This document shows positions 23,715 through 26,081 of a stretch of DNA of 64,000 bases, piece by piece (positions within the stretch are counted from its first letter, which is position 1; each line of letters opens with the position of its first letter). The DNA is from Malaciobacter halophilus (lineage in GTDB: Bacteria > Campylobacterota > Campylobacteria > Campylobacterales > Arcobacteraceae): contig NZ_NXIF01000007.1 of the NCBI RefSeq assembly GCF_002837275.1, positions 62,001 to 126,000 of the forward strand, written 5' to 3'. The notes under the pieces are model-generated. The model saw only the letters and a program-made list of their open reading frames with translations, was not told the DNA's origin and ran no database searches. Position numbers and translations under genes: made by a program.

Positions 23715-24971
23715 ATGGAAGATATAAAAAAAATAATTAAAAATACTATTCGATCTTTAACAAAGCAAGAAATACCCGCAACTCCATCTAATTATGCAAA
23801 AGAGTTTTATAAGCAAGCACAAGAGCTAGATTTTAGAGTTGATGAGTTAAATAAGTTTTATAAGTTATATAAAGATTTAAATGAAGATGAGAAGCTATAT
23901 ATAAGTGAAAATGATATAACCACTTATTTTGAACTATCCTTCTTGCTATTAAAAAGAGTAAATAACAAAGATTTAACTAAATTTATAGAGAATTTAGATT
24001 TTTTACTTACCCCTTCTATTGATTATAATATTGAAAAAAAGATTTCACAACTAAAAACAGAACTTTTACAAGAGCCTCAAAGATTAGTTAAAAATAGTAC
24101 TATAAATAGATTAAGAAAATTTACAAATGAAAGAATTACAAGAGATAAAGTTGTAGTTCAAGAAAAAGCAAAAGATGTTAAAAAAGTAATTAATCTTATG
24201 GGAAAATATTTTGACAAATGTTTACTTCAAAGTGATGATACTTCAAAAGAGGTTACAATGATAAAAACTGAACTAGAAGGCTTGGAGTTATCAAAACATT
24301 CAGCTAGGGATTTAGCTATGCTTCAAAGTAAGCTAGTAGATACTATTCATAAATTAGAAAATAGTATAGATGAATCTCAAGCTGAACTTTTTAAAGGACA
24401 AAAAGATTGTGTTTATTTACAAAAACAAATAAATAAACTTGAACAAGATTTAAATGAAGTTAGTAGAGAAAAAGATATAGATTTTTTAACAGGTATTGCT
24501 AACAGAAGAGCATTTGCAGCAGAAGTTGACAAAATTGAGAATGAATATGAAATATTTAAATCTAAGTATGCAATAGTATTTTATGATATTGACCACTTTA
24601 AATCTATTAATGATAATTATGGCCATGAATGTGGAGATACTGTATTAAGTACTTTTGCAACAATACTAAAAAAACTAACAAGAGAAGAAGATGTAATTTG
24701 TAGGTATGGTGGAGAAGAGTTTATAGCTTTAATTCACTATACAGAAGATGATGAAGTATTAAGTTATTTAAAAAGAGTACAAAATATTGTTTCTACAAAT
24801 AAATTTGTTCATAAAGATATAAAATTAAAAGTTAAATTTTGTGCTGGAGTAGTTTATAGAAATAAATATAACTCTTATAATGAAGCTTTAGAACAAGCAG
24901 ATTTACTACTAAATAAAGCTAAACATGAAGGTAGAGATAAAATTATTATTGATACTGGAGTGTATATATAA
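23715..24971 (+). CDS. soluble GGDEF diguanylate cyclase
   Basis: It makes the second messenger c-di-GMP from GTP. The C-terminal third holds a complete GGDEF domain: DFLTGIANRRAF (about 257-268), FYDIDHFKSIND, and the active loop RYGGEEF (about 331-337). REED five residues before it is an RxxD inhibitory site, so product feedback is likely. The first 250 residues are helical with a long coiled coil just before GGDEF, no membrane segment and no sensor domain I recognise. It is monocistronic, 56 bp after the infA terminator. Confidence 0.93.
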   Translation: MEDIKKIIKNTIRSLTKQEIPATPSNYAKEFYKQAQELDFRVDELNKFYKLYKDLNEDEKLYISENDITTYFELSFLLLKRVNNKDLTKFIENLDFLLTPSIDYNIEKKISQLKTELLQEPQRLVKNSTINRLRKFTNERITRDKVVVQEKAKDVKKVINLMGKYFDKCLLQSDDTSKEVTMIKTELEGLELSKHSARDLAMLQSKLVDTIHKLENSIDESQAELFKGQKDCVYLQKQINKLEQDLNEVSREKDIDFLTGIANRRAFAAEVDKIENEYEIFKSKYAIVFYDIDHFKSINDNYGHECGDTVLSTFATILKKLTREEDVICRYGGEEFIALIHYTEDDEVLSYLKRVQNIVSTNKFVHKDIKLKVKFCAGVVYRNKYNSYNEALEQADLLLNKAKHEGRDKIIIDTGVYI

Positions 24972-24976
24972 TAAAC

Positions 24977-25061
24977 AAAGCTATGAAGCCTCGTATTAGT
25001 TATAGTTCGCAGTTTAAAAAGGTATAACTAATAGTTAGCTCCATAGTTTTGCCTACTAAAT
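24977..25061. other. long imperfect hairpin between GGDEF gene and HTH gene
   Basis: AAAGCTATG pairs with CATAGTTTT (9 bp, one G-U) and, inside it, TATTAGTTATA pairs perfectly with TATAACTAATA (11 bp) around an 18-nt loop; AGC/GCT may add three more pairs in the internal loop. It lies just after the diguanylate cyclase stop and before the convergent HTH gene. It may be a transcript-end structure or a small RNA; there is no long U-run. Confidence 0.45.
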
Positions 25062-25077
25062 ATTTACAACTACACTA

Positions 25078-25287
25078 TTATAGTCTATTTTCGGTTAATT
25101 TAATCTCTTCTTCAAGAAGTTTCTTGTGATTAATCATAAGTTGTAAGTTTTTATTTAACAACTCTTTCCTTTTATATGACTCTATAATAAAATTATAAAG
25201 CTTAGGTCTTGTTTTTTTCCAATTGTGTAAAGTTGTCTTATTTACTCCTAATTCTTTTTCTAATGTTCTAAGACTTGGTAAAGTCAT
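25078..25287 (-). CDS. small helix-turn-helix DNA-binding protein
   Basis: This is a 69-residue protein, MTLPSLRTLEKELGVNKTTL at its start, with a helix-turn-helix at about residues 5-26 (LRTLEKELGVNKTTLHNWKK) followed by a basic helical tail. I chose ATG 25287 because AGGA lies 7 bp upstream; the frame is open to 25338, but that extension would translate through the operator-like repeat. It is probably a transcriptional regulator of its own gene and perhaps of the divergent glycosylase gene; both are inferences from the repeats at 25316-25381. The ligand is unknown. Confidence 0.75.
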   Translation of the reverse strand: MTLPSLRTLEKELGVNKTTLHNWKKTRPKLYNFIIESYKRKELLNKNLQLMINHKKLLEEEIKLTENRL

Positions 25288-25315
25288 TATAAATCCTGTA
25301 TTGTTGCTTGAAATG

Positions 25316-25345
25316 TATTGTACAAAATATTTGAACAAAAATCAA
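25316..25345 (-). promoter_or_regulatory. probable promoter of the HTH gene overlapping repeat 1
   Basis: Read on the minus strand, TTGATT (complement of 25340-25345) and TACAAT (complement of 25317-25322) are spaced by exactly 17 bp, about 30 bp upstream of the HTH start. The first 24-bp repeat (25316-25339) covers the -10 and the whole spacer, so a protein bound there would block transcription. Confidence 0.55.
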
Positions 25346-25381
25346 GTAAAAAATAAATATTGTACAAAATATTGGAACAAA
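25316..25381. repeat. two near-identical 24-bp direct repeats, 42 bp apart
   Basis: 25316-25339 and 25358-25381 read TATTGTACAAAATATT, then T or G, then GAACAAA; 23 of 24 bases are the same and the offset is 42 bp, four helical turns. Each copy holds the dyad TTGTACAA and, 13 bp later, TTtGaACAA. They lie between the divergent HTH and glycosylase genes and look like operators. Confidence 0.8.
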
Positions 25382-25415
25382 TTAATGTGAAAGTTAAGTT
25401 TTTGTAAAATTTGGC

Positions 25416-26081
25416 ATGACAAATGCAGTTAAAAACAGAATTTTATATCAATTAAATTTTTTAGAATCTATTGGTTATGAGTATCATCCAAATATTGAAT
25501 TTGGCAAAAATGAGATAAATGATTCAAATTTGCCAAATAACTTAAGTGAACTAAAAAATATAGTTGATAATTGCTATTTATGTGATTTGTGTAAAACTAG
25601 AAAAAATGTACTTTTTGGACAAGGTAATAGCGATGCAAAAGTTCTTTTTATTTTAGAAGAACCAACAACTAGTGAAGATGAGTTAGGAGAGTTTTTTGTT
25701 GGTAAAAGTGGTGAAATATTAAAAAATATGATTCAAAATGTACTTATGTTAGACACTCATGATGTATATGTTACTAATATTGTTAAATGTAAATCTAATG
25801 ACGGATTTACTACAACAAATGCAAATAGTTGTAGGGTATATTTAGATAAACAAATTGAGTTAATAAATCCAATGTTAATTGTAACTTTTGGAGAGAAAGC
25901 TTATAAGTATTTAACAAATGATAATGTACAATTTGAACAAGTAAGAGGAAATATACTTCCTTTTAAATATTATAATATTATTCCTACTTTTTCACCTAGT
26001 ATATTACTTAGGAATCCTTCATTAAAAAAAGAAGCATATTATGATATGCTAAAAATTAAATCTATACTGGAGATAAATTGA
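25416..26081 (+). CDS. divergent family-4-like uracil-DNA glycosylase superfamily protein
   Basis: This 221-residue protein has the family-4 UDG layout: a Cys cluster (CYLCDLC, about 54-60, plus Cys in VKCKS and NSC) that could hold a 4Fe-4S cluster, the segment EDELGEFFVGKSGE (about 91-104), NIVKC and a C-terminal LLRNPS. However the usual GEAPG motif is LEEPT and the catalytic HPxxLLR is SPSILLR (no His). It may be inactive or act on another substrate. Residues 1-45 are an unassigned extension. Its stop overlaps the next start. Confidence 0.75.
   Translation: MTNAVKNRILYQLNFLESIGYEYHPNIEFGKNEINDSNLPNNLSELKNIVDNCYLCDLCKTRKNVLFGQGNSDAKVLFILEEPTTSEDELGEFFVGKSGEILKNMIQNVLMLDTHDVYVTNIVKCKSNDGFTTTNANSCRVYLDKQIELINPMLIVTFGEKAYKYLTNDNVQFEQVRGNILPFKYYNIIPTFSPSILLRNPSLKKEAYYDMLKIKSILEIN

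Follow-up and report, generated by a model that had tools for sequence, protein, structure and literature searches.

At the lambda OR region, a small HTH protein (CI or Cro) acts on three palindromes placed approximately 24 bp apart between divergent promoters, and this arrangement forms the lytic switch. Autoregulated small HTH genes with tandem phased palindromes and a divergent target are an arrangement of an already known kind and mechanistically ordinary. In Campylobacter jejuni, promoters follow the layout TTnAAGTnTT, TTTTTTTG, TATAAT (PMC3824568), and the leaderless mRNAs of this species include those of the repair genes nth and mutY (PMC3847290).

Here, we analyzed a 64,000-nucleotide stretch of the Malaciobacter halophilus genome (contig NZ_NXIF01000007.1, positions 62,001 to 126,000; hereafter the window), in which two near-identical repeats lie between a small HTH gene and a divergent uracil-DNA glycosylase gene. 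We consider it likely that this locus encodes a local transcription regulator that is dedicated to a base-excision-repair gene and also controls its own expression. The family of the HTH protein, its operator, and the tie to uracil-DNA glycosylase appear to be undescribed within the searchable literature.

The repeat pair and its flanking genes

The locus contains the following features, numbered by their position in the window:

24970..25062, minus strand: conserved hairpin directly 3' of the HTH stop codon (alignment A4, L078-L114)
25078..25287, minus strand: small HTH gene, 69 aa, predicted autoregulator (ORF, ortholog start, and AF2 model)
25316..25381, no strand: 24-bp direct repeats, both copies (direct sequence comparison)
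25317..25345, minus strand: HTH promoter, -35 TTGATT (25345-25340), 17 bp, -10 TACAAT (25322-25317)
25318..25338, minus strand: predicted operator site 1, TTGTTCAAATATTTTGTACAA, located between the -35 and the -10 of the HTH promoter and extending into the latter
25360..25380, minus strand: predicted operator site 2, TTGTTCCAATATTTTGTACAA, 42 bp from site 1
25390..25410, plus strand: glycosylase promoter, AAAG (25390-25393), 11 bp, -10 TAAAAT (25405-25410)
25416..26081, plus strand: family-4 uracil-DNA glycosylase gene, 221 aa (PF03167, E = 1.6e-26; TIGR00758)

The 24-bp copies TATTGTACAAAATATTTGAACAAA (25316-25339) and TATTGTACAAAATATTGGAACAAA (25358-25381) are identical in 23 of 24 bases and spaced 42 bp apart, as the original prediction had stated, and such a match is indeed far beyond chance, with about 1e-6 repeat pairs of this kind expected per 128-bp region of the same composition. 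Allowing up to 3 mismatches, the window holds these two copies only (shuffled sequences give 0.01), and no further 24-bp copies were found in the rest of the 2.75-Mb genome. The dyad TTGTACAA, which had been proposed to lie within each repeat, is present, but the conserved unit is a different one: comparison of the upstream regions of HTH orthologs identified a 21-bp interrupted palindrome, TTGTTCC-N7-KGWACAA, and the 8-bp TTGTACAA in the proximal copy is the right half of this palindrome, overlapping the -10. On the basis of this comparison, the pair is a real operator with predicted protein binding, and its functional unit is larger than the 8-bp dyad. Across loci, the palindrome of site 2 is frequently clean (TTGTTCCAATTATTGGAACAT), and the right half of site 1 is fused with the -10 (TTGTACAAT). 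With transcription starts placed by inference from the -10 boxes, the sites are centered near -18 (site 1) and near -60 (site 2) relative to the predicted HTH start, and site 2 near -47 relative to that of the glycosylase gene. The TTGATT-17-TACAAT promoter proposed for the HTH strand was recovered, with the proximal copy covering its spacer and -10, and both the -35 (TTGAC/TTGAT) and the -10 (T-A-N-A-A-T) stand out as conserved columns across 43 loci. A possible third site spanning the -10 and the start codon of the glycosylase gene (TTGTCAT..TTGTACAA, 42 bp farther on) was considered and dropped because the same sequence occurs in HTH-less genomes, where it is simply the -10 box plus ATGACAA.

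The predicted 69-residue HTH gene was likewise borne out, with its ATG at 25287 and its stop codon at 25080-25078. The program-made ORF begins upstream at a TTG, whereas the ATG at 25287, with an AGGA ribosome-binding site approximately 6 nt ahead of it, is the start conserved in orthologs. The AF2 model of the protein (pLDDT 91) contains helices at residues 6-13, 17-26, and 28-68, a layout of two short HTH helices followed by one 41-residue helix; the protein is predicted to dimerize, probably via this C-terminal helix. Residues 16-24 are nearly invariant among orthologs, as is helix 17-26 (KTTLHNWKK). No sensor domain was found in the protein. Its best Pfam match was Xre/MbcA/ParS (E = 0.0069, 16.5 bits vs. 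a cut-off of 27.8), and scans against NCBIfam and PHROG returned no family above the cut-off; across orthologs, the top-scoring family was HTH_19 (E = 4e-5), with matches in 9 of 30 members and likewise none above the cut-off. Nothing significant was obtained in a sequence search of the PDB, nor any fold at E <= 0.001 in a PDB fold search.

The divergent neighbor, previously described only as glycosylase-like, belongs to the family-4 uracil-DNA glycosylases (TIGR00758, 135 bits vs. a cut-off of 125.3). The -10 of its promoter ends 5 nt before the ATG, and the layout AAAG-N11-TANAAT-N5-ATG is common to most HTH-bearing and HTH-less genomes; the glycosylase mRNA is probably leaderless.

Conservation and joint occurrence across Arcobacteraceae

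Ortholog loci were compared from related Arcobacteraceae genomes and named records (Arcobacter, Aliarcobacter, Halarcobacter, Poseidonibacter, and bins). An alignment of this kind had been proposed as a check of the original prediction, and the repeats and their spacing proved to be conserved: two palindromic sites precede the HTH gene in 46 of 47 distinct loci, which are not independent of each other owing to family ties between the genomes. The spacing is 42 bp in 37 and 43 bp in 9 of these 47 loci; a stricter filter retains 43 loci (34 at 42 bp, 9 at 43 bp). Among the 34 filtered 42-bp loci, sites 1 and 2 show a mean pairwise identity of 79% and 75%, respectively, compared to 50% in the non-promoter spacer, and site 1 lies anywhere from 25 to 60 bp from the start codon. 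As the spacer drifts and the start distance varies, it is thus length and phase that are conserved, not sequence. On the opposite side, the interval between site 2 and the glycosylase -10 is constant in 39 of 43 loci, and the HTH gene adjoins the glycosylase gene in 46 of 47. The sole locus without a full pair, L019 of the HTH-bearing genome G022, has a degenerate site 1. In one 74%-complete genome (G021; L094/L143, contig C80), the HTH gene lies apart from the glycosylase gene, and its promoter is accompanied by three full sites spaced 42 + 42 bp, of which one lies downstream of the promoter. A loose two-site pattern run over 104 genomes gave about as many matches as the control and was discarded.

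An HTH ortholog is found in 62 of the 104 Arcobacteraceae genomes, always as one copy, and the glycosylase gene in 58 of the 60 genomes tested. The site pair is absent in 21 genomes that have the glycosylase but not the HTH gene: in their best 42/43-bp pair, the weaker site has no more than 9 of 14 matches, compared to 12-13 of 14 in 10 of 11 HTH-bearing controls. This co-absence is unlikely to be a single event, since HTH-less and HTH-bearing species occur together within the same genera (g1, g6, g11, and g19). Some HTH-less promoters contain an apparent remnant half-site (GAACAAAT in G101, GAATAAAT in G117), which suggests loss and decay of the sites. The joint absence of sites and gene is the strongest evidence from which we infer the HTH protein to be the cognate binder.

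We built a site profile from 54 sites, which in the genome of M. halophilus recovered the two operator sites at E = 4e-5 and 8e-4, with the next place at E = 0.1. All one-mismatch pattern matches fetched in this genome lie within ORFs, and the extra single-site matches inspected in relatives fall within coding sequence; a single-site match in L140 is intergenic, but it is terminator-like and was rejected. The genome-wide search for additional copies, also suggested at the outset, therefore yielded no convincing further operator site by repeat, pattern, or profile searches. The predicted regulon appears to be limited to the present locus, with weak sites below the sensitivity of the profile being possible.

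Directly downstream of the HTH gene lies, in most lineages, the conserved hairpin of approximately 90 nt, whose outer stem covaries (two-sided changes in 8 of 17 pairs) and whose apical segment is conserved, with the consensus ACTTTTTTAAAGTGCGCGAAA and the apical loop ACTTTTTTAAAGYGCGCGAAA. No match to it was found in Rfam. The hairpin model hits one place per genome, adjoining the HTH gene, in 16 of the 22 genomes that carry this gene and in none of 12 HTH-less genomes; one further weak match elsewhere occurs in G060 (E = 0.07). The hairpin is absent in G003-G005, and the regulator model does not require it. It may act as a bidirectional terminator, a role that does not account for the conservation of the loop. 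In another lineage (L096, L098, L100-L102), the same position downstream of the HTH gene is taken by a hairpin of another kind (CATGATGTTTTAAGA..CCCATTAAATGCACA..TCTTAAAACATCATAGG), which has a distinct conserved loop.

Proposed regulation and alternative explanations

In the mechanism that we propose, the 69-residue protein would dimerize and its HTH would bind the two 21-bp palindromes, which share one face of the DNA at a distance of four helical turns. Because a protein on site 1 and RNA polymerase necessarily compete, the most probable result is autorepression: a dimer at site 1 would block the polymerase and cap the level of the HTH protein, which is thus predicted to repress its own promoter. 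A dimer at site 2, approximately 47 bp upstream of the glycosylase start, would adjust the glycosylase promoter, where a protein so placed could either assist or impede the polymerase. The in-phase site pair would make binding cooperative, as judged from the spacing alone. The mechanism would require no ligand or damage signal, and none was seen; without a sensor, such an autorepressor may do no more than keep its own concentration steady. The earlier suggestion that the regulator responds to DNA damage or base repair found no support: the protein lacks a sensor domain, LexA has no match in the genome, and the glycosylase promoter stays the same where the HTH gene is missing. The LexA search used PF01726, which had no match in this genome and was positive in 10 of 14 control genomes. 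The identity of the protein as a LexA/SOS repressor was rejected on the same grounds and because the 69-aa protein has no protease domain.

Since the glycosylase promoter is nearly the same in HTH-less genomes, it should work without the regulator, which would tune rather than enable it, and the putative control of the glycosylase by the HTH protein may be weak or incidental. Taken further, the protein might control only its own promoter, with the glycosylase a conserved neighbor whose promoter is unaffected. This is possible, though rather unlikely: the regulator is not needed for a promoter whose AAAG-N11-TANAAT-N5-ATG layout is the same without HTH gene and sites, and site 2 lies upstream of the glycosylase -10, but this reading would leave unexplained why the two genes are neighbors in 46 of 47 loci and why site 2 and the glycosylase -10 are a constant distance apart in 39 of 43. 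The 42-bp spacing, in turn, has to be weighed against the density of signals in this region, where two promoters and two sites occupy approximately 100 bp, with site 1 overlapping one promoter and the -10 of the other located 42 bp past site 2. We regard it as unlikely that the spacing is a mere by-product of such tightly packed divergent promoters instead of reflecting cooperative binding. Packing does not force a constant spacing, as the neighboring site-to-start distance ranges from 25 to 60 bp; G021, away from the glycosylase, has a third site at the same 42-bp step; and, suggestively, repeats at paralogous small HTH genes prefer 31 bp, or three turns. Still, it counts against the proposed cooperativity that a dimer of 69-residue proteins would have to bridge 21 bp of free DNA, and the constancy of the 42-bp step may in part stem from how the promoters are laid out instead of from contact between proteins.

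Palindromes with GTTC/GAAC half-sites serve several unrelated regulators. The resemblance of the present sites to these would fit binding by another, global regulator with the HTH gene as merely one of its targets, an explanation that is very improbable given that convincing sites occur at no other promoter in the genome, that absence of the sites coincides exactly with absence of the HTH gene, and that the genome lacks a LexA match. Small HTH genes with repeats can also call to mind replication iterons, partition sites, or a toxin-antitoxin operator, and the weak Pfam hint to Xre/MbcA/ParS (E = 0.0069, below the cut-off) points the same way. Yet the context is one of chromosomal housekeeping, there are only two sites, located on a promoter, and the partner is a ubiquitous repair enzyme in the opposite orientation, so that we give this origin almost no credence. 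An antitoxin of the Xre/MbcA/ParS type was rejected for the score of 16.5 bits vs. 27.8 and the same ubiquitous partner. Local regulation by the HTH protein itself is the reading that we retain.

Related small HTH proteins and described systems

HTH proteins of approximately 60-100 aa with likeness in the HTH occur elsewhere in the Campylobacterota (e.g. L193, L200, L204, and L207) and share a W-K/R-x-x-R/K-P-x-L motif after the HTH (profile E mostly 1e-5 to 1e-8). These mini-HTH paralogs differ from the present protein in operator sequence and spacing and are not orthologous to it. Palindromes approximately 31 bp apart, e.g. GCTAAATATTAGC, are found in the paralog promoters L200, L204, L207, L210, L215, L217, and L026. 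The repeat test is weak for single paralog promoters, and only the pooled 31-bp preference stands out; this three-turn spacing suggests a putative family-wide design of phased operators. A bolder and doubtful extension is that the HTH gene, phased operators, and hairpin form an undescribed regulatory module, and that the Campylobacterota contain a mini-HTH family with whole-turn operators. If true, a 69-residue protein with no sensor, possibly acting jointly with a structured RNA, would set the level of a base-excision-repair enzyme in a lineage without LexA, and the family would use operators at three or four whole turns with a separate palindrome per subfamily.

The regulator would be the first one recognized for a family-4 uracil-DNA glycosylase in these bacteria, for which no paper was found, and this candidate repair-gene regulator is hosted by a genome without a LexA match. 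With two sites, one spacing, and natural joint absences of regulator and sites, the locus offers a compact test case, and it points to uncharacterized, very small regulators in the Campylobacterota whose operators can be read from sequence.

Among described systems, the glycosylase promoter resembles the C. jejuni promoter layout (PMC3824568), and its -10 box lies directly ahead of the ATG, as in leaderless Campylobacter repair mRNAs (PMC3847290). Unlike the leaderless genes of C. jejuni, the gene is a family-4 uracil-DNA glycosylase of Arcobacteraceae, and its leaderless state is a prediction from sequence alone. The likeness to LexA/SOS lies in a putative self-regulating repressor beside a repair gene; the HTH protein differs in having no protease or sensor domain, a one-locus regulon, another operator sequence, and an unsupported link to damage. 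Lambda OR has three sites approximately 24 bp apart and a lytic switch, whereas the locus has two sites with a 42-bp spacing and no such switch; the HTH protein is not recognized as a CI/Cro relative, and its cooperativity is presumed. What the locus shares with lambda OR are palindromes between divergent promoters, one of them overlapping the regulator's own promoter, with a regular spacing suggestive of cooperative dimers.
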